A DNA stretch of 64,000 bases from Haloarcula hispanica ATCC 33960 (GTDB lineage Archaea; Halobacteriota; Halobacteria; Halobacteriales; Haloarculaceae). Within the stretch, counting starts at the first letter, position 1. Each line of letters begins with the position of its first letter. The DNA lies in assembly GCF_000223905.1 (NCBI RefSeq), contig NC_015944.1, positions 186,001-250,000 on the forward strand. Direction: 5' to 3'. The position numbers were made by a program, and so were the translations under genes. Positions 31,106 through 47,166 of this stretch are shown here, piece by piece. The notes under the pieces were generated by a model. The model was not told the DNA's origin and made no database searches. It was given only the letters and a program-made list of their open reading frames with translations.

Positions 31106-33658
31106 TCATCTGGTGATGCGCTCCCGAGCCGGATCGAACAGCGGCTCGTCCCGCACCGTCGCGTCGTAGGTCTCACCCTCACACTGGATCTGGACTGATG
31201 TGCCGGCCTCGGCGTATTCGGTCGGAACGTACGTGTACGCGATTGATTCGTCAATGCTGTAGCCGTAGTTTCCGGCTTGCACGTAGCCGATGGCCTCGCC
31301 GTCTTTCAGCACCGGCCGCCCACTCAGCATGATGTCCGTCGAGTCGTCGAGCGTGACCGGCGTGATTTTGCTGTCGATACCTGCCTTGCGTGCGGCCTCC
31401 AGAGCTTCTTTGCCGATGAAGTCTGTGTCCATGTCGACAGCGAAGGGGAGTCCAGCTTCGAAGGGGTTCGAGTCCGTGTCGATGTCCGTCCCCCAGAGGC
31501 GGTAGCCTTTCTCTAACCGCATTGAACTGAGTGCACCGCCGCCCATCGGCCGGACACCGAGGTCCTCTCCGGCGTCCTGCAGCGTCTCCCAGAGCCGCTG
31601 GCCGTATTCCGTGGGTACCCACAGCTCCCAGCCGAGTTCACCCACGTACGAGACCCGGAGCGCGATGACCGGCACGTCGTCGACGTACATCTGCTTGGCG
31701 CTGAAGTACGGGAACCCTTCGTTGGTCACGTCCGTGTCGGTACACCGCTGGAGGAGGAGCCGCGAATTCGGCCCCCAGAGGCCGATTGTGGATTTCGCGC
31801 CTTCCTCGACGTGGACCGACACCGTCTCGGGGGCCTCGTCTTCCAGGTGACCGCCGTGGATGCCGGGGGAGTTCCCGCCGCCGGTCGTCACCATGAACTC
31901 CTCGTCGTCGAGTTTGACGACCGTGATGTCCGCGAGAATGCCACCGCCCTCGTTCAACAGCAGCGAGTAGCGGACCTGCCCGACGTCGAGATCCATGTCG
32001 TTGCTACAGACCCGCTGGAGGAACGCCTGGCTCCCCTCGCCTTCGACCATGATCGAGCTGAACGTCGTCATGTCGAACATCGACACCTTGTCGCGGGTGT
32101 GGAGATGCTCGGCGGCCTCGATTTTCGAACGGTTGATGCCCTGCCAACCGTCCTGGGCGGGAATCCGGTCGTCGTACTTCTCGACCAAGTCGGCGTTCGA
32201 CTCGTACCACTGTGGCGTCTCCCAGCCGCCGCTCTGGTAGAACTCCGCGCCGAGTTCCTTTTGCTGGTGGTAGAACGGACTCGTCCGGAGCCCCCGGTGG
32301 TCGTCGGGCTGCCACCGCGGCTCGACGATACTATACACCTGCTCGTACCGCTTGGCCCCGCGGTCCACGAAGTAGTCCTTCTCGCCCGCGTGCGGTTCGA
32401 ACCGTCGGACGTGAATGCCGCCGGTGTCGACCGGGCCGGACGGCAGTCTGGGAACGCCGTTTTCCATCCACTCGGCAAGGATGCGGCCGTAGCCCCCGGA
32501 GTGGGTCCACCAGATAGCCAGTCCGGTCCAGAGGCCGTCGACCTGCGCCGTCTCGCCGACGGCCGGCATCCCGTCGGGCGTGAATACGAAGATACCGTTC
32601 TCGGTGGCCTCGTATTCCACGTCCTGTGTCGCCGGCAGCAGTTCGTCGAAGGCCTGCTTGGCGGATTTGTCCCGACCGCGGTGGGTCGGCGTCTCCCAGT
32701 GCTCCTTCGTGAACCCTCTGACTGACGCCTGGTGCTCCTCGGAGTTCTTCCCCATCGCCTCGGGGTCGACCGAAAGCGTCTCGTGGTTGTACGAGCCCAT
32801 CCCGAGCGCGTCGCCGTGGGTCCGGAAGTACAGCGAGTGGTCCTGGTCGCGGCCGACTGGCTGGTGTGGCCCTTCGCTCATGTACTCAGCGATAGAGCGG
32901 TCGCCCGGCACGTCCAGCCCGGTCGTGTTGTCGCCGACCGAGGATTCGGCGTCGGCGAGTTCGTCCATCGGTTCGGTGACGACGTACTGGTGCTCCACTG
33001 GCGCAATCGGGAGGTCGAGCCCGGCCAGCTGGCCGGTCTGGTAGCCCCAGTTGTTCGTCGCGATGACCGCTCGCTCGCAGTCGATGCGGCCCTGATCGGT
33101 CTCGACCGCGTTGATTTCACCCCCCGAAACATCCAGATCCGTGACCTCCGTGTTCCCGTAGAACGACGCCGAAGAGTTTTCCATATACCACTGGAGCGCG
33201 CCGATGCCGTCGACGCGTCCATCAGTCGGCGAGTAGTAGCCACCGAGGATTTCGTCCTCGTCGACCATCGGAAGGTGCTCGGTGACTTCCTCGGGCGAGA
33301 GCAACTGCGGTTCCGGCAGCCCATAGGAAGTCGCCCACTCGACGCGCCGACGGAGGAAGTCCATGCGCTCCTCGCTCCGGGCCACTTCGATGCCACCGAC
33401 CTCGTCGTAGACGTCGGCATCAGAGAGGAGCCGACTGGTGTAGTAGGCTGTCTTCGTCTGTATCTTCGACGGCGACGTCTGGAACATGATGCCGGGTGCG
33501 TGGACTGACGACCCGCCAGTGACGGGCAGCGGCCCCTGATCGATGACTGCGACGTCTTCCGCGCCGAGTTCCGTCAGGTGATACGCGACGCTACACCCAA
33601 CGGCCCCGGCACCGATAACAACAGTATCCGCCCGAGACGGGGGAGTCTCTGTGCTCAT
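31106..33658 (-). CDS. FAD-dependent oxidoreductase / GcvT fusion (dimethylglycine or sarcosine dehydrogenase type), copy 2
   Basis: An 850-residue protein with the same order as copy 1: DAO-type FAD domain (VVIGAGAVGCSVAYHL) with GGSSVHAPGIMFQ, where His53 is the likely covalent FAD anchor, a linker domain, then a GcvT domain (LLNEGGGILADITVVKL, RVSYVGELGWELW, RLEKGYRLWGTDIDTDSNP) and C-terminal barrel. It should oxidise an N-methyl glycine derivative and make methylene-THF. It is much closer to copy 3 than to copy 1. It lies 56 bp downstream of the ilvA start, so the two read in the same direction, and has its own TATA box. Confidence 0.9.
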   Translation of the reverse strand: MSTETPPSRADTVVIGAGAVGCSVAYHLTELGAEDVAVIDQGPLPVTGGSSVHAPGIMFQTSPSKIQTKTAYYTSRLLSDADVYDEVGGIEVARSEERMDFLRRRVEWATSYGLPEPQLLSPEEVTEHLPMVDEDEILGGYYSPTDGRVDGIGALQWYMENSSASFYGNTEVTDLDVSGGEINAVETDQGRIDCERAVIATNNWGYQTGQLAGLDLPIAPVEHQYVVTEPMDELADAESSVGDNTTGLDVPGDRSIAEYMSEGPHQPVGRDQDHSLYFRTHGDALGMGSYNHETLSVDPEAMGKNSEEHQASVRGFTKEHWETPTHRGRDKSAKQAFDELLPATQDVEYEATENGIFVFTPDGMPAVGETAQVDGLWTGLAIWWTHSGGYGRILAEWMENGVPRLPSGPVDTGGIHVRRFEPHAGEKDYFVDRGAKRYEQVYSIVEPRWQPDDHRGLRTSPFYHQQKELGAEFYQSGGWETPQWYESNADLVEKYDDRIPAQDGWQGINRSKIEAAEHLHTRDKVSMFDMTTFSSIMVEGEGSQAFLQRVCSNDMDLDVGQVRYSLLLNEGGGILADITVVKLDDEEFMVTTGGGNSPGIHGGHLEDEAPETVSVHVEEGAKSTIGLWGPNSRLLLQRCTDTDVTNEGFPYFSAKQMYVDDVPVIALRVSYVGELGWELWVPTEYGQRLWETLQDAGEDLGVRPMGGGALSSMRLEKGYRLWGTDIDTDSNPFEAGLPFAVDMDTDFIGKEALEAARKAGIDSKITPVTLDDSTDIMLSGRPVLKDGEAIGYVQAGNYGYSIDESIAYTYVPTEYAEAGTSVQIQCEGETYDATVRDEPLFDPARERITR

Positions 33659-33690
33659 GTATCTCGTTTGTGACTGTCTCTGTCATATTC

Positions 33691-33698
33691 TTAAATAC
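33691..33698 (-). promoter_or_regulatory. Putative TATA box of fusion copy 2
   Basis: Minus strand GTATTTAA, 33-40 bp before ATG 33658. It shows copy 2 can be transcribed separately from copy 3 upstream. Confidence 0.5.
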
Positions 33699-33874
33699 AC
33701 CGGTGGCCGGAACCCACGCAAAAAGAGAACGTCGGGTAGAGGAGTCACAGAGAGGTATTTCGACCAGTGTCGAGCCGTCGGGTATCAGTAGGTAGCGAGA
33801 AGAAACCGCAGTGCGGGACTGAACCACAGCGTGTTACAATCCCGATAGAACCAGCGGCTGGTCACAGACCGCTC

Positions 33875-36445
33875 TCAGACGAGCGGTTCCTCGCGGACGG
33901 TTGCGTCGTACCGCTCACCCTCGTAGAGGATTTCGACGCTAGTTCCGGGTTCGGCGTACTCGGGCGGCAGGTACGTGTAGGCGACGCAAGCGCCTTCGGT
34001 GTAGCCGTACTCGGCGCTGTGGAGGTAGCCGATAGTCTCGTCGCCGTCGAGGACTGGCTTGTTGTCCAGCACGACGGCATCCTCGTCGTCGAGCGTCAGG
34101 CACGCGACCTTGTGGTCGATGTTGTCGCCGTCGGCGGCCGCGGCGACGGCCTCCTTGCCGATGAAGTCGGTTTCGAGGTCGACGGCCCACCCGAGGCCGG
34201 CCTCGTACGGGTTGTGCTCCGTGTGGAGGTCCTTCCCCCAGAGGCGGAAGCCTTTCTCGATACGGAGGGAGTTCAGCGCGCCGTTGCCATAGGGCCGGAT
34301 ACCGTACTCCTCGCCGGCCTCCATGATGTGCTCCCAGAGGCGCTCGCCGTACTCCGAGGGCGTGTAGAACTCCCAGCCGAGTTCGCCCGCGTAGGAGACG
34401 CGGAGCGCGGTGACGGGAATGTTCTTCACGAAGAACTGCTGGCTCGTGAAGAACGGGAAGGCGTCGTCGGAGAGGTCGACGTCGGTGATCTTCGAGAGGA
34501 CCTTCCGGGCGTTCGGGCCGGTACAGACCATCGCCGCCAGGCTGGAGGTCACGTCGTTGACGACCACGTCGTCGGGGGACTGCTCGCGCACCCACGCGAC
34601 ATGGTTGTTCCCGACTTCGCGGCCGGTCGTCAACAGGAGGTAGCGGTCCTCGTCGGTTCGCGTGACCGTGATGTCCGCTCGTACGCCGCCGGCCTCGTTA
34701 CACATCAGCGTGTACTTCACGTCGCCCACATCGATATCCATGTCATTCGTACAGAGGTACTGGACGAACTCGCCGGCGTCGCCCCCGATGACCTCCATCT
34801 TGTTGAAGGATGTCATGTCGTGGAGGCCGACGTTCTCCCGGACGTTCAGCGCCTCAGCGCCTTCGATGGGGGACCAGTACTTCGCTTCCCAGCCCTCGCG
34901 GTCGGGGATCTGGTCACCGTACTCCGCCAGCAGGTCGGCATTTGAGTCGAACCAGTGGGGTTCCTCCCAGCCGGCCTCGGCCCACAGTTCGGCGTCGTAC
35001 TTCTTGTGGGTGTGGTACATCGGAGTCCGACGGATGTCCCGCTGTTTGTCGGTCCAGACCCACTTGGGGTGCATGATGTTGTAGACGATGCGGTACTCCT
35101 CGCCGCCGATGTCCCGGGCGAAGTCCCAACTACCCTCGTGCTCGTCGAAGCGGTTCACGTCGCAGTGGGCGAGGTCGATGGGTCCTTCCGGCAGTCGTGG
35201 TACGCCGTGTTCCATCCACTCGGCGAGCGCTTTGCCGGCACCGCCGGCGTGGGTGACCCAGATGGCCGCCGCCGTCCAGAGGCCGTCGTACTCCTGGACG
35301 GGCCCCATCACGGGGAGTCCGTTGGGCGACTCCGCGAACATGCCGTTGTACTTGTGTTCGAGTTCCTTGCCGGCCGTCGCGGGCAACAGCTCGTCGCTGG
35401 CCTGTCGCGGGGCCTTGTCCGGCCGGTCCGGATGTGTCGCGTTGTCCATGTGGTAGTCCGTGAACTCGTGGACCGAGCCCTGCTCGCCGTCGGGGTCGTT
35501 GCCGCCGAGGTCCTGTGGATCGGGCACGATTGGCTCGTGGTTGTACGAGCCGATACCGTAGGAGTCCCCGTGGTTCCGGTAGTACATCGCGTTGTCCTGG
35601 TCGCGGAGAATCGGCCGGTCCGGACCCACGAGGAGCCGTTTTGCCTTCTCCCCGGAGACGTTCTCGTAGTTCTCGAACAGCGGGTGGTCCGTGATGTCGA
35701 CCGCGCTGTCGGCCAGTTCGTCGAGGGACTCCGTCATCGTGTACTGGTGTTCGACCGGCGTCACTGGCAGGTGCACGTCGAGTTTCTCGCCGAGTTGACG
35801 GGCCCAGATGTTCGTCGCGACGACGACCTCGTTACACTCGATACTACCGTTCTCCGTGACGACGGCCTGGACCTCGCCGTCCGCTGTTTCGACGTCCTCG
35901 GTGCGCGTGTGCGGCACGAACTTCGCGCCCCCGTCCATCGCTTCCCTGGCCAGTGCGTCACACGCGACGACGCCCGAGACCTGCCCGTCCGTCGGGGAGT
36001 AGTAGCCGCCCTTGATCTGGTCGGCGTCGACCAGCGGGAGGTGCTCGGTGACTTCTTCGGGCGAGAGCAACTGCGGGTCCTCGATGCCCCAGGCCTTGGC
36101 GTATTCGACGCGACGCTGGAGGAAGTCCATGCGTTCCTCGCTGCGCGCGACTTCGATGCCGCCTGTTTCGTTGTAGGCCTGCTGCCCATCCGCGCCCTCG
36201 AGGTCCGAGTACAGCCGACGGCTGTAGTCCGCAAACTGGCTGAGGACTTTCGGCTCCGCGGTCTGGAACATGATTCCGGGAGCGTGGGTGGATGATCCAC
36301 CAGTGGTTGGCATCGGCCCCTGGTCGACTACGACCACGTCCTCACGGCCGAGCGCTGTCAGCTGGTAGGCGATGTTGCAGCCGACGATTCCGGCACCGAC
36401 GATGACGGTATCGGCCTGGGTCGGCAGGCTATCGGTAGGCTCCAT
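33875..36445 (-). CDS. FAD-dependent oxidoreductase / GcvT fusion (dimethylglycine or sarcosine dehydrogenase type), copy 3
   Basis: An 856-residue protein: FAD domain (VIVGAGIVGCNIAYQL) with GGSSTHAPGIMFQ (His54 as likely covalent FAD site), linker domain, GcvT domain (MCNEAGGVRADITVTRT, RVSYAGELGWEFY, RIEKGFRLWGKDLHTEHNP) and C-terminal barrel. Expected role as for copy 2; different residues in the substrate half (for example ALAREAMDGGAKFVPHTRT) suggest a different methylated amine. It reads in the same direction as copy 2 with a 216-bp gap. Electrons probably go to the ETF encoded near 18 kb. Confidence 0.9.
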   Translation of the reverse strand: MEPTDSLPTQADTVIVGAGIVGCNIAYQLTALGREDVVVVDQGPMPTTGGSSTHAPGIMFQTAEPKVLSQFADYSRRLYSDLEGADGQQAYNETGGIEVARSEERMDFLQRRVEYAKAWGIEDPQLLSPEEVTEHLPLVDADQIKGGYYSPTDGQVSGVVACDALAREAMDGGAKFVPHTRTEDVETADGEVQAVVTENGSIECNEVVVATNIWARQLGEKLDVHLPVTPVEHQYTMTESLDELADSAVDITDHPLFENYENVSGEKAKRLLVGPDRPILRDQDNAMYYRNHGDSYGIGSYNHEPIVPDPQDLGGNDPDGEQGSVHEFTDYHMDNATHPDRPDKAPRQASDELLPATAGKELEHKYNGMFAESPNGLPVMGPVQEYDGLWTAAAIWVTHAGGAGKALAEWMEHGVPRLPEGPIDLAHCDVNRFDEHEGSWDFARDIGGEEYRIVYNIMHPKWVWTDKQRDIRRTPMYHTHKKYDAELWAEAGWEEPHWFDSNADLLAEYGDQIPDREGWEAKYWSPIEGAEALNVRENVGLHDMTSFNKMEVIGGDAGEFVQYLCTNDMDIDVGDVKYTLMCNEAGGVRADITVTRTDEDRYLLLTTGREVGNNHVAWVREQSPDDVVVNDVTSSLAAMVCTGPNARKVLSKITDVDLSDDAFPFFTSQQFFVKNIPVTALRVSYAGELGWEFYTPSEYGERLWEHIMEAGEEYGIRPYGNGALNSLRIEKGFRLWGKDLHTEHNPYEAGLGWAVDLETDFIGKEAVAAAADGDNIDHKVACLTLDDEDAVVLDNKPVLDGDETIGYLHSAEYGYTEGACVAYTYLPPEYAEPGTSVEILYEGERYDATVREEPLV

Positions 36446-42537: not shown

Positions 42538-42621
42538 TATAGTAACAATTGAAACGGTGTACACACTGATCGCACTGCCGCCGTGCGATCAGGTGTGCAT
42601 TGATTTTCAATGGCTACTATA
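42538..42621 (+). mobile_element. 84-bp palindromic MITE-like element, copy A
   Basis: It begins TATAGTAACAATTGAAAC and ends in the imperfect inverse CATTGAAA...TAGTATA read from the other strand, so the whole unit folds into one long hairpin. Compared with copy C on the opposite strand it differs at one base, and with copy B at two. It is too short to encode a protein, so it would depend on an outside transposase. Confidence 0.75.
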
Positions 42622-42777
42622 CGGACATTGTTTCAAGTGACAGCAAGTCGTATTCTGGAACTGGAATCCTGCCGTTTGGATCTGAATCAGTTGGATGTCG
42701 CCACACCAATGCTAGCCCGGACCTTGATAGCGTATCTCGCGCGCGACTTATGAGGTACCAGCCATATAAAACGCCGT

Positions 42778-43053
42778 ATGGATACGATTCACCTGTCGCC
42801 CGGTCCCGCCGCTGCTCAGGCGTTTCGCCTGGGAATTATCGCGAGCGCGGTCGGTGGACTCGCCGGGATTGCGACACTGTACTGGCTAGACGTCCTGACA
42901 CCGGTGTTTGCTGGATACGCACTTGTTCTCTTGTTCCCCGTGTATCTTGTCTTCGCCGCAACAGCGTTGAGCGTGTGGTTGGGATACAACAAAGACGCGA
43001 AAGCATTGCGACCGGTCTACCGTCAAAAGGATTCGAGCGGGCGATCCGAGTAA
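42778..43053 (+). CDS. Small two-span membrane protein
   Basis: A 91-residue protein with two hydrophobic helices (FRLGIIASAVGGLAGIATLYW and FAGYALVLLFPVYLVFAATAL) and a basic-polar tail YNKDAKALRPVYRQKDSS. It has the look of the DUF-type small haloarchaeal membrane proteins, but I cannot name it. A TATA-like CCATATAAAA lies only about 10 bp before the ATG, too close for this start, while CGACTTATG near 42745 fits better. It is between two 84-bp elements. Confidence 0.5.
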   Translation: MDTIHLSPGPAAAQAFRLGIIASAVGGLAGIATLYWLDVLTPVFAGYALVLLFPVYLVFAATALSVWLGYNKDAKALRPVYRQKDSSGRSE

Positions 43054-43224
43054 ACACCACGGTTAGATAGGTCCAGTATCTGCATCAATGACTCTATTTT
43101 CGATATTTTTGTTCACATACACCAGGATACAGTTTCAAATGCGGTTCGATGTCACGAGAGTTGGTTTAAATCGGTAAAACGATTGGAACGCCTTCCGAGC
43201 GCTCCCAGTGGCGGAACTGTGGAC

Positions 43225-43878
43225 TCACTCCTTTCTGTCGATTATTGTTGCTGCAATGAGGTTCCGCATACCCCGCCGGAGACGGCCGCTCATCGCTGTC
43301 GAGGACAATCCGATTTCGTCTGCGACTTCGTTCAAGGAGATATCCCTGGGTTCTCCGAAATAACCGTTTTCGTATGCGGTTGTCAGCGCGGTCCGCTGTT
43401 CATCGGTCAATCCGTATGACGACTCACCGCCAGTGTCCGTGTTTCCGTAGATTTCGATGATATCGAGCGAGATGTCGTTCTCGTTGGCATATTCCCAGAT
43501 CGTGTTGAGTGCCTCTCGGTCGGGGAGGAGGAGTCGGACGAGCCATCCGTTGCCCTTCGTTTCGGTATGGACGAGAAATCCATTGACATCCGTGACGACT
43601 GAGCTGATGAGTTTCGTTTCGGGGGTGTGTTCGATGTAGTATATGCCGGTCTGGTCGGTCCAGTCGACGAGTTCGTAGCTCTGGACTGTCGGATCGGCAT
43701 CGAGCATCTCTTCGAGTCGGTCTCTGTCACGATACTCGATGAGGAACGGAAACACAGTGGAGCCCGGATCGGTATTCCCCTGTGTGATGACACGTATCGC
43801 TATGTCTTCGAGGTTCTGTAACGTTGGAACCAGAGCGAGGCGTTCGTGTTCAATGTGTATTTTCGTCGTTATTGACAT
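43225..43878 (-). CDS. Bacterio-opsin activator (HTH_10) family regulator
   Basis: A 217-residue haloarchaeal regulator. The N-terminal 150 residues form a sensory-type domain (VQSYELVDWTDQTGIYYIEH, GWLVRLLLPDREALNTIWEY). The C-terminal LTDEQRTALTTAYENGYF...EVADEIGLSSTAMSGRLRRGM is the HTH_10 DNA-binding domain first seen in Bat. Such proteins regulate nearby genes in response to unknown signals; the divergent small gene and the nitrilase/MFS pair are candidate targets. No phosphoacceptor domain is present. The upstream 400 bp are AT-rich. Confidence 0.88.
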   Translation of the reverse strand: MSITTKIHIEHERLALVPTLQNLEDIAIRVITQGNTDPGSTVFPFLIEYRDRDRLEEMLDADPTVQSYELVDWTDQTGIYYIEHTPETKLISSVVTDVNGFLVHTETKGNGWLVRLLLPDREALNTIWEYANENDISLDIIEIYGNTDTGGESSYGLTDEQRTALTTAYENGYFGEPRDISLNEVADEIGLSSTAMSGRLRRGMRNLIAATIIDRKE

Positions 43879-44286
43879 TTTAGGTACGGAGATTACAATC
43901 GAAGCGTCAAAGACGAATACCAGTTCGACAACGGAGTGGCATCATCTGTGAACTGCTGTATGTACGCGGGGTCTCCACGTCAATGTTTACATGCACAGGT
44001 GCACACACGAGGGCAAAAATAAAAAGCTGACTGCCGTCCCAAATGGCCCCGATCGTGTTAGCGAGACTGTGTTTTCACCAATGAGAACGAGTCTCCGGAC
44101 GCAGTCTAAGCGACGAAGTAACGAGAAACAACTCAGAAGACATGTGTCATTGAACCAGCCAATTCGGCGAGTAGCACACGTCTCTATCGGAATGTGTATT
44201 AACAATCGTTTATAATTGTGCGTAATAAATACCCGTAATTATCCTACAATGAGCTTAGAAGGCTGTACCCAGTATATTGTATTGAC
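43879..44286. other. AT-rich divergent intergenic region
   Basis: 408 bp between the HTH_10 regulator and a tiny reading frame. It is markedly AT-rich (for example AAAAATAAAAAG at 44024, TTTATAATTG at 44211), unlike the core genes, which suggests acquired or decaying DNA. Its TATA-like strings could drive both directions. No gene or RNA recognised. Confidence 0.45.
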
Positions 44287-44454
44287 ATGAGTGAACCACA
44301 AAACCAATCCACCGCGGATAGCGAGTTCTCAAACGACGATTTCTATCTACCGGCAGTCGCGCTACCGCCGAACTTCGGTCGTATCGAGGCGGCTGTTTCC
44401 GACCTCTTCGACTTCCACGGCGTCGTGCTGATTCCGGACAGTTACAATAAGTAA
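44287..44454 (+). CDS. Orphan 55-residue reading frame, possibly an N-terminal remnant
   Basis: ATG 44287 opens a 55-codon frame with haloarchaeal codon use: acidic start MSEPQNQSTADSEFSNDD, then FYLPAVALPPNFGRIEAAVSDL and a TAA. A TATA-like GCTTAGAAGG lies about 28 bp upstream. The text reads like the start of a longer enzyme that was cut off; an 84-bp element sits 38 bp after the stop. No family recognised. It could also be a real small protein. Confidence 0.4.
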   Translation: MSEPQNQSTADSEFSNDDFYLPAVALPPNFGRIEAAVSDLFDFHGVVLIPDSYNK

Positions 44455-44492
44455 CTCAGCCGCGTAGCATGTGTGGTTTATTTGAGGGTACC

Positions 44493-44576
44493 TATAGTAA
44501 CAATTGAAACGATGTACACACTGATCGCACTGCCGCCGTGCAATCAGGTGTGCATTGATTTTCAATGGCTACTATA
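44493..44576 (+). mobile_element. 84-bp palindromic MITE-like element, copy B
   Basis: Same length and direction as copy A, with two base differences from it; one from copy C. It lies 11 bp after the end of the nitrilase C-terminal segment and 38 bp after the orphan frame. Its terminal TATAGTA is followed outside by ACTAATCG with no clear target duplication. Confidence 0.75.
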
Positions 44577-44587
44577 ACTAATCGTGG

Positions 44588-44827
44588 TCAGTCGGTCAGT
44601 TTATCAGCGACCGCTTCGACAGCCTCGACAGGAACGTCGTACTCGTCGGCGACCGCTTGTGCCTGTGCTGCCGAGAGTGAACTGGTTCCGGCGACCGGAT
44701 TTTTGCTTGGTTCTCGCGGCTGTGAGGGCGCCAACGTTTCGTCGTTGATAGACAGGCTCACTGCGTCCCAGCGGGTGTAGTGACCCATCGCATCGAAGTA
44801 CGCCTTTGTCGCCCGCCGTTCGTCGTC
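44588..44827 (-). pseudogene. Detached in-frame C-terminal segment of the nitrilase
   Basis: Directly after the nitrilase TAG (44828-44830) the same frame continues for 79 residues: DDERRATKAYFDAMGHYTRW, then DAVSLSINDETLAP and a helical end VPVEAVEAVADKLTD. The first part matches the usual nitrilase C terminus (tail region with GHYxRxDxxSL), so a single nonsense codon appears to separate it from the enzyme. A start at ATG 44788 is possible but would make only a 66-residue fragment. Whether the stop is read through is unknown. Confidence 0.7.
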
Positions 44828-45688
44828 CTAGAACTCGGCAGTCAGGAGCCCCTCCTCACCGACCAGCGGACCAGCCTTGACAATCCCCGCCGGGTTGATG
44901 AGCATACTCCCGCCCGCGGCGACGTTGAACCCGAGTTCGTCCTCAGAGAAACCGTCTGGAACAGCGTCGCTCATGTACGCCGAGCACGCAGCGACGAACG
45001 ACTGGGTTTCGAAGGCGTACTCCCGCATGGCGGGATAGATATCACAGGTATCCACGGCCTCGCTCGTCTCCGCTCGAGTCTTGTCCCCTGGATGACCGTG
45101 TTGTTCCCAGAAGCCGGGCCAGACGGCGGCGTGTATCTCCTCGCCCATTGCGGTCAGCGCCGCTTTCGAGAGCGTCATGTGGTTCTCGTAGCAGATGAGA
45201 CCGCCGAGCCAACCGACATCCGTCTCATACGTGGCCAGGCTGGATGGGTCGCCCCGGCCCCAGATGGCTCGCTCCTCGTGGGTCGGCATCAGTTTCCGGT
45301 GTCGACCCATCAGCTCCCCCGTACTGTCGAAGTAAAACAGCGAATTGTAGAGCGTCTCGCTTCCCTGCCGGTCACTGACTTCGTTCGTGCCCAGCACGAG
45401 TGTGAGGTCCGCCTCCGCGACTGCCTCACCGAGTACCTCGATAGCCTCGTCGTCGACGTGGAGACTGTTCTTCTGGAGGTCCACCATCAGGTCGGTCCAT
45501 CTGGAGATAGAGACGCTACCTCGCCAGTATGGGTACCCCGGGAAGTACGTCTCCGGGAAGACCACGATGTCTGCACCGTCCCGTCCCGCCTGCTCGATAT
45601 ACCGGCATGTCTTGTCCAGCGTTCCCTCCTTGTCGTGGTAGACTGGCTCTACCTGCGCGGCCGCGAGTGTGAACGATTCGGCTGGCAT
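44828..45688 (-). CDS. Nitrilase / carbon-nitrogen hydrolase, ended early by an amber codon
   Basis: A 286-residue nitrilase with the full catalytic set: Glu46 in VVFPETYFPGYP, Lys132 in GRHRKLMPT and Cys166 in GLICYENHM. CYENHM and the length with its tail fit true nitrilases (nitrile to carboxylate plus ammonia) rather than amidases. The frame stops at TAG after GEEGLLTAEF, yet continues in the same frame with the normal C terminus (see the segment on its 3' side). The C-terminal tail is needed for oligomer formation in many nitrilases, so the short form may be impaired. An MFS transporter gene lies upstream on the same strand. Confidence 0.85.
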   Translation of the reverse strand: MPAESFTLAAAQVEPVYHDKEGTLDKTCRYIEQAGRDGADIVVFPETYFPGYPYWRGSVSISRWTDLMVDLQKNSLHVDDEAIEVLGEAVAEADLTLVLGTNEVSDRQGSETLYNSLFYFDSTGELMGRHRKLMPTHEERAIWGRGDPSSLATYETDVGWLGGLICYENHMTLSKAALTAMGEEIHAAVWPGFWEQHGHPGDKTRAETSEAVDTCDIYPAMREYAFETQSFVAACSAYMSDAVPDGFSEDELGFNVAAGGSMLINPAGIVKAGPLVGEEGLLTAEF

Positions 45689-45791
45689 TCGTTCGCAATA
45701 TACAGACCATCATCAAATCAGTTTGTCCGAAGACGGTGCGAATCTGGGCTCAGCATTCCGTCGCCATAGTCTGAACTGCGTCCGTACTACC

Positions 45792-47030
45792 CTACTGGCG
45801 TTCCGGTTCTGGGGCCTGCCAGGCGACGATGATACCGGCGACAGCAACCGTGCCAGCCAATAAAAACGCCGGCTCAAATCCGACGCTGTTTACTACGGCT
45901 CCACCAGCGATCGGTGCAACAAATGCCCCTGCCAGGCCGATACTGGTCTGGAACGCGACCGCCGTCGCAGCGACGGGCGGATCAACGAGCTCTCGAACAT
46001 ACGTAAACGAGAGGCCAAGCGTCAGTTGGACCGCAAACCCGATCAGCAGGAGGACGGCAACAAGCAGTGGCAACGAGCGAAACTGCGTAAACCCGAGGAG
46101 AAGCGGCGCAGCAAGGCCGAAGGACGACAACACGACCGGTCGCCGTCTGCCGTTGAAGACCCGGTCCGAGATGAGCCCGCCGCTGATTCGAGAGACCACA
46201 CCAACGGCGGGGAACACGGCAACGACGAGTCCGCTTACGGCCAGGGAGAAGTCCAGTCCTTGCGTGAGGTACGACGAGCCCCAGCTATTCACGAACAGGT
46301 ACAGCGCGTAGCCGAGGAAGCCGAGGACACCGACGAGCCAGACGTTCCGGCTCCGGAGCACTGCCCCGAATTCCTGCAGGGACGGGGCATCGCCGCGGCT
46401 CCCGCCGTGCCCGCGGCTCGCCGGCCAGAAGACGGCCAAGCCCGCGAGGGCGGGGCCAATGAATGCCAGAAAGACAGCCGGCCAGCCGAACCGCTGGGCG
46501 ATGAGCGGCCCCGTTCCCTGTCCGAGTGCGAAGCCGACCGGCCCACTGGCAGTGAAGATGCCGACTGCTGTCGCACGGTTGGAGCCGTCGACGGCCCGGC
46601 TCACCATGTCGATACCGGCGTTCCAGACGATGACATACGCAGCTCCTCCCAGTGCACGCGACGCGAGGATTGATTGGTACTGGCCACGCCGACCGGCTAG
46701 CCAGCCCCACGTCCCGGCGATGACTAACGTGCCCACCGCAAGTGCCATCGCGGTCCTCGAATCGGTCCGGTCCAGCACAGCCCCGACAGGGAGACTGACG
46801 ACGACAGCGGTGCCGAACATGACCCCGACCAGGAGGCCGGCGGCTGTCGGCCCGACCTGTAGTGACTCCTGAATGAGTGGTGTCACGCTTGCAGGGACGA
46901 TCTCGTAGGCAGCCAGTCCCAACGAGATGAGGCTTGCACCCGCTACAAGCCACCACGTCGAATCGGCTGTTCGAACAGGTGTCTCAGCAGCGGTGTCCGA
47001 AATATCGGAATCAGTAGCCTGTGGTGTCAT
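45792..47030 (-). CDS. MFS transporter
   Basis: A 412-residue protein with about 12 membrane helices in two halves. TM1 is WWLVAGASLISLGLAAYEIV; the loop between TM2 and TM3 is GAVLDRTDSRTAM, a form of the MFS GxxxDRxGRR signature. It is likely a permease for a small organic anion or nitrile-derived acid, but substrate is not readable. It is 103 bp upstream of the nitrilase on the same strand, so both may serve one compound. Copy C of the 84-bp element starts 53 bp before its ATG and might affect its promoter. Confidence 0.85.
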   Translation of the reverse strand: MTPQATDSDISDTAAETPVRTADSTWWLVAGASLISLGLAAYEIVPASVTPLIQESLQVGPTAAGLLVGVMFGTAVVVSLPVGAVLDRTDSRTAMALAVGTLVIAGTWGWLAGRRGQYQSILASRALGGAAYVIVWNAGIDMVSRAVDGSNRATAVGIFTASGPVGFALGQGTGPLIAQRFGWPAVFLAFIGPALAGLAVFWPASRGHGGSRGDAPSLQEFGAVLRSRNVWLVGVLGFLGYALYLFVNSWGSSYLTQGLDFSLAVSGLVVAVFPAVGVVSRISGGLISDRVFNGRRRPVVLSSFGLAAPLLLGFTQFRSLPLLVAVLLLIGFAVQLTLGLSFTYVRELVDPPVAATAVAFQTSIGLAGAFVAPIAGGAVVNSVGFEPAFLLAGTVAVAGIIVAWQAPEPERQ

Positions 47031-47082
47031 TCTGGCGGGGATGAGCGTTCGGTCATCGTACTGTCGTAGTCGGCACCGGAGC

Positions 47083-47166
47083 TATAGTAGCCATTGAAAA
47101 TCAATGCACACCTGATCGCACGGCGGCAGTGCGATCAGTGTGTACATCGTTTCAATTGTTACTATA
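47083..47166 (-). mobile_element. 84-bp palindromic MITE-like element, copy C
   Basis: Reverse orientation relative to copies A and B, with one base difference from each. Its outer ends read CTATAG on both sides. It lies upstream of the MFS gene and its terminal TATAGTA could act as a TATA box for that gene; this is untested. Confidence 0.75.

Follow-up and report, generated by a model that had tools for sequence, protein, structure and literature searches.

An 84-bp palindrome present in three near-identical copies

Within a 64,000-nucleotide stretch of the Haloarcula hispanica ATCC 33960 genome (NC_015944.1, positions 186,001 to 250,000; hereafter the window) lie three copies, A, B and C, of a palindromic element (Table 1). 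A sequence-only reading of this DNA had described them as nearly identical 84-bp units within 5 kb, each folding into one long hairpin, and both descriptions were borne out. Each copy is 84 bp; A and B are 98% identical in direct orientation whereas C is inverted, with 99% identity to A and 98% to B, and of the three it is C that is nearest to the family consensus. Folded with RNA parameters, the copies pair nearly end to end, with energies between -36 and -42 kcal/mol where shuffled sequences average -16 to -18; z runs from -6.4 to -8.5, and none of 200 shuffles was as stable. As developed below, we consider it very likely that these hairpins are a non-autonomous DNA transposon, a miniature inverted-repeat transposable element (MITE), consisting of an 80-bp near-perfect palindrome that is moved into CTAG by a transposase of the IS630/Tc1-mariner type.

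A dispersed multicopy family

Searching all three replicons for more copies revealed 40 distinct ones (best E ~1e-47), a count that excludes matches of a palindrome to its own opposite strand. Fifteen are on the replicon of 488,918 bases, nine on that of 405,816 bases to which the window belongs, and 16 on the chromosome of 2,995,271 bases. The corresponding densities of ~31, ~22 and ~5 per Mb make the small replicons 4-6 times denser than the chromosome. Both orientations of the element occur. By annotation all 10 plasmid copies are intergenic, including a 38-bp form, and a coding-like frame is overlapped by only 1 of the 40 copies versus 6 of the 31 CTAG sites in the window. The family therefore has the make-up of a MITE: it is short (80-84 bp) and non-coding, carries the terminal inverted repeats TAGTAACAATTGAAA / TAGTAGCCATTGAAA, and is dispersed in many copies. 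The 38-bp form (C2:269357-269394, L072) is an internal deletion in which both ends are kept and the core is missing.

Insertion into CTAG with duplication of TA

An alignment that includes the flanks gives C-TATAGTA...TACTATA-G, with C on the left in 34 of 40, G on the right in 32 and both in 27. CTAG accounts for 34 of the 1624 TA sites of the window (2.1%), which gives a binomial tail of ~4e-36 for 27 of 40. Comparison with related strains, which had been suggested as a check, yielded precise empty sites for three insertions. The site of copy A is empty in the closest relative (G001), which reads GAGCTAGGG there and aligns without gaps over 500 bp (96% identity). That of copy C is empty in another Haloarcula (G013, AACTAGAAG), and the copy is also absent from G024, G029 and G007. 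A third copy, at C2:398482 (L010), has its empty site in Natrinema zhouii (CCGCTAGAT), and the sequence surrounding this insertion is related to a Haloprofundus IS5-family transposase gene. Each of the three empty sites carries one intact CTAG; therefore the element is 80 bp long, starts with TAGTA and duplicates the TA within CTAG, and the TA that brackets it on either side belongs to the target duplication. The ends proper read TAGTA(A/G)C(A/C)ATTGAAA. In giving the ends as TATAGTA, the sequence-only reading counted in the target duplication. Copy B is present in G001 and absent from G024, G003, G007 and further genomes, in which divergence of the flanks obscures the exact target. The outcome which that reading had said would refute it, namely no other copies and positions conserved in all strains, did not occur.

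Spread among haloarchaea

The MITE occurs in 24 of 32 Haloarcula genomes and in 125 of 392 genomes of the order, distributed over 31 of the 95 genera sampled and several families. It is carried by 48 plasmid records from Haloarcula, Halomicrobium, Natrinema, Natronorubrum, Natrialba and others. One genome gave up to 191 first-look candidates, and abundance per genome is probably tens to over a hundred copies. In other families most elements are exactly 84 bp with TA duplications, and forms of 83, 85, 88, 112 and 121 bp exist. Three elements from other haloarchaea (L250, L251 and L292; 85, 112 and 121 bp) combine the same ends with wholly different palindromic cores, which suggests that cores are replaced or extended as palindromes. 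Phage records held no match to the MITE. Viral carriage was rejected, as the IMG/VR matches to the 17-bp end were single, apparently due to chance, and had no partner at 84 bp.

A haloarchaeal IS630 group as candidate mobiliser

Members of the IS630/Tc1-mariner group insert into TA and duplicate it (PMC2170065), and the TA of CTAG is described as preferred by IS630 in a passage of the same source that cites Tenzen and Ohtsubo 1991. We identified haloarchaeal IS630 insertion sequences (ISs) through a Pfam DDE_3 search of the genus in which the MITE ends were not used as a query, and 80 relatives from named haloarchaeal genomes gave 59 elements with both ends bounded; the right boundary was set using the TAGTA start, so that elements starting otherwise would drop out. 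The 59 aligned elements have a modal length of 1055 bp and the ends TAGTARNCRTTAGAA (TAGTAG[C/A]C[G/A]TTAGAA; consensus ends TAGTAGCCGTTAGAA and TAGTAGACATTAGAA). They duplicate TA, are flanked by C..G in 39 cases, and have two overlapping frames, of which orfA matches HTH_33/HTH_32 and orfB matches DDE_3. TAGTA, an ATT..GAA core and the C-TA-G preference are common to this group and the MITE. The interior of the ~1055-bp IS630 elements is wholly unrelated to the MITE. When the MITE ends were scored on the IS630 profile, 16 of 300,000 shuffles did as well as the right end and 204 as well as the left. Holding TAGTA fixed raised these numbers to 2,927 and 19,572, and because support is then weaker we place most weight on the TAGTA start and the target site that MITE and IS have in common. 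The TAGTA group of IS630, or a close relative of it, is probably the mobiliser of the MITE, as judged from these sequence likenesses; the ends are not identical, so the assignment to IS630 is made from target, duplication and similarity only. The idea of the sequence-only reading that the hairpins are MITEs mobilised in trans is supported by the 40 dispersed copies, the empty sites, the TA duplication in CTAG and the existence of an IS630 group with related ends. The search it had proposed for an insertion sequence sharing those ends turned up a group with related ones; neither identical ends nor a resident IS of this group was found.

Several results weigh against this assignment. No IS with exactly the 15-bp ends of the MITE was found in the genomes searched; the best IS ends differ from them at 2-3 of 15 positions (..ATTGAAA in the MITE, ..ATTAGAA in the IS). 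The genome of H. hispanica itself has no IS630 of the TAGTA group, its sole IS630 being a 1072-bp relative with other ends. Across the 392 genomes the IS630 group is found in 79, the MITE in 125 and both in 43, but this co-occurrence is mostly at the level of families (overall p 3e-6; p 0.29 within f7, which is Natrialbaceae by its named members). Finally, two closely related plasmids show no difference in copy number, with 9 places each.

Other candidate parents and lines of evidence were set aside. Searches for a longer element with exact MITE-type ends, using end-plus-start-codon patterns in the 392 genomes, returned MITEs only, as did the TATAGTANNNNTTNNAA pattern in the H. hispanica genome and end searches in MITE-rich genomes. 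The 1072-bp IS630 relative was rejected as a resident mobiliser on account of its unrelated ends; it is present in two identical copies (G000:C1:241350 and G000:C3:516589; L047 and L060) that are evidently recent. Presence-absence correlation between MITE and IS630 was rejected as evidence, being confounded by family. An IS630 flanked by MITE ends (L299) was likewise rejected as a parent and is a nested insertion: at positions 1364-2502 of this locus, in a Natrialba-like genome (G101), an intact-looking 1055-bp IS630 sits inside an arm TA of an 84-bp copy of the element.

Symmetry of the hairpin within and between genomes

The arms of the hairpin behave differently within one genome and between lineages. 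In 34 distinct 84-bp copies from H. hispanica we counted 993 Watson-Crick cells versus 991 with one arm reshuffled, as if the arms were independent. In 40 distinct elements from other genomes there were 1157 versus 1083 in shuffles, and 12 covarying pairs with 57 covarying cells versus 9.0 and 23.7 (0 of 300 shuffles as high); this control leaves relatedness in, and it is the contrast between the two sets that informs. Base pairs were set from a single-sequence fold, RNAalifold on the ungapped alignment having given little, with arms offset by one base in places. Because covariation is seen between lineages and none within the genome, symmetry appears to be renewed when lineages found new families and not to be kept in resident copies. 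Elements L022 and L034 have an extra left-arm base that matches the right arm, and in L023 and L034 the core is inverted; to judge from these three, arm-to-arm copying is one visible cause of symmetry. Mismatches between arms comprise 5 G-U versus 13 A-C distinct events on the modelled strand, counted after merging shared mutations (raw figures 5 versus 22), with no significant bias to G-U. Rfam gave no match, whether at the gathering score or with the threshold relaxed to E 1.

These observations bear on whether the hairpin could instead be a fixed regulatory or structural RNA (a terminator, a processing site or a small RNA) that was copied and then retained by selection for its role in gene control. 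The very stable fold, the intergenic placement (copy C is 53 bp upstream of the start of a major facilitator superfamily transporter gene) and the covariation between lineages would all fit such an RNA. Yet the hairpin decays freely among the copies of its own genome and shows no preference for G-U over A-C, which makes a resident regulatory RNA unlikely; with positions polymorphic between related species, both orientations in use and nothing in Rfam, we regard this explanation as very improbable. A REP/BIME-like or IS605/PATE-like palindrome, moved as a single-stranded hairpin by a Y1 (RAYT/TnpA) transposase, would account for the full-length hairpin, and similar palindromes, such as the PATEs of Haloquadratum, abound in haloarchaea (PMC3119063). 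However, PATEs and IS605 have neither terminal inverted repeats nor a TA duplication (PMC3119063), both of which are present here at precise empty sites, and the target is the symmetric CTAG and not a fixed sequence on one side only. We find this origin, if anything, slightly harder still to credit.

A more serious contender, though one to which we assign only a minor share of the probability, is a MITE moved by some other TA-duplicating transposase, either a TA-type member of the IS5 family or an unseen IS630 subgroup with the exact ends. In its favour, the sampled IS630 group contains no perfect end match and some MITE-rich genomes (G270, G335, G376, G015 and G122) lack any DDE_3 match; against it, that group already has the TAGTA start, the ATT..GAA core and the C-TA-G preference.

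Proposed transposition cycle

For the IS630-mobilised MITE we propose that a transposase of the IS630/Tc1-mariner type, supplied in trans, would excise the element at both ends and paste it into the TA of CTAG, doubling the TA, which would explain why the unit looks 84 bp long (CTATAG...CTATAG). The genome at present lacks such an IS, so the mobiliser, whether the TAGTA-ended haloarchaeal IS630 group or a close relative, would have to arrive from time to time, for example by plasmid. Resident copies may then decay neutrally, with hairpin symmetry being renewed in active lineages by arm-to-arm copying, by better transposition of symmetric ends, or by both. A tentative extension, which we think rather doubtful, is that mobility depends on the palindrome over its full length. 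The arms would then be kept complementary in active lineages, either by a hairpin or cruciform that serves as the transposition substrate or by replication template switching that copies arm to arm and founds symmetric masters; unrelated 84-bp cores might thus recur from the same ends.

Comparison with known elements

By anatomy, the closest known system is RUP of Streptococcus pneumoniae, for which IS630-Spn1 is the proposed mobiliser (PMC2229807), and the present element may be regarded as its archaeal counterpart. RUP is likewise a non-coding intergenic hairpin of ~100 bp in ~100 copies, with TA termini and target and IS630-like terminal repeats (PMC2229807); the likeness is drawn from the anatomy described there. 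In contrast to RUP, the element described here is 80 bp plus TA, targets CTAG, extends over an archaeal order and not one species, and has no matching resident IS630. The Correia/NEMIS elements of Neisseria are also abundant hairpin MITEs (~107 bp) with TA ends, but belong to another host domain and some bear DNA motifs; they are likened by description, not by sequence (PMC2229807).

Among haloarchaea, the MITEs of Haloquadratum walsbyi and its SMR-A and SMR-B elements are similarly short, are bounded by terminal inverted repeats and lack a transposase, and HqIRS39 moves although its genome offers no functional partner (PMC3119063). The SMRs leave the target unduplicated, and IS605-type targets are favoured by the SMR-A families (PMC3119063); SMR ends are unrelated to those of any transposon, whereas our element duplicates TA in CTAG and has ends related to the IS630 group, and so falls under neither SMR-A nor SMR-B. 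It is set apart from the HqIRS elements by their description, not by sequence. No description of this MITE family was found in the literature searched, outside which most subscription journals lie. We therefore regard it provisionally as a new family of a known kind of element, set apart without sequence comparison to ISfinder or Haloquadratum.

The family adds to archaea an abundant, order-wide group of IS630-type miniature elements and accounts for many unannotated intergenic hairpins of haloarchaea which, unrecognised, could pass for terminators or small RNAs. It also offers a clean system for asking how elements without a resident transposase stay mobile and why CTAG, a sequence avoided in Haloquadratum (PMC3119063), is sought. 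That one length of 84 bp is mostly kept while the core diverges with compensation is a testable puzzle of palindrome upkeep.

Local context of the three copies

Table 1. Positions, in window coordinates, of the three element copies and of the terminal features of copy A.
Feature	Position	Strand	Remarks
Copy A	42538..42621	+	80-bp element 42540-42619; TA duplications 42538-42539 and 42620-42621; empty site in G001
Copy B	44493..44576	+	element 44495-44574 plus TA duplications; between two small genes that converge
Copy C	47083..47166	- (inverted)	element 47085-47164 plus TA duplications; empty site in G013
Left TA of target-site duplication, copy A	42538..42539	.	partner 42620-42621; empty site has a single TA
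Left terminal repeat TAGTAACAATTGAAA, copy A	42540..42554	+	right end, other strand = TAGTAGCCATTGAAA; resembles haloarchaeal IS630-group ends

Besides the transporter beyond copy C, a dihydrofolate reductase start is annotated 95 bp downstream of copy A. The suggestion that the copies sit next to decayed or truncated genes holds in that the nitrilase-like carbon-nitrogen hydrolase gene beside copy B (window 44588-45688, minus strand) is interrupted in this strain by an in-frame stop, which leaves an annotated 286-aa protein and a remainder annotated as hypothetical; its frame is unbroken in eight related Haloarcula genomes. A causal link does not hold, however, because copy B lies 11 bp beyond the natural end of the gene and did not cause the split; the proximity is incidental. 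Elsewhere in the window, positions 31902-36176 contain several direct repeats, 71-77% identical and at a constant spacing of ~2.75 kb, which look like a gene block duplicated in tandem.

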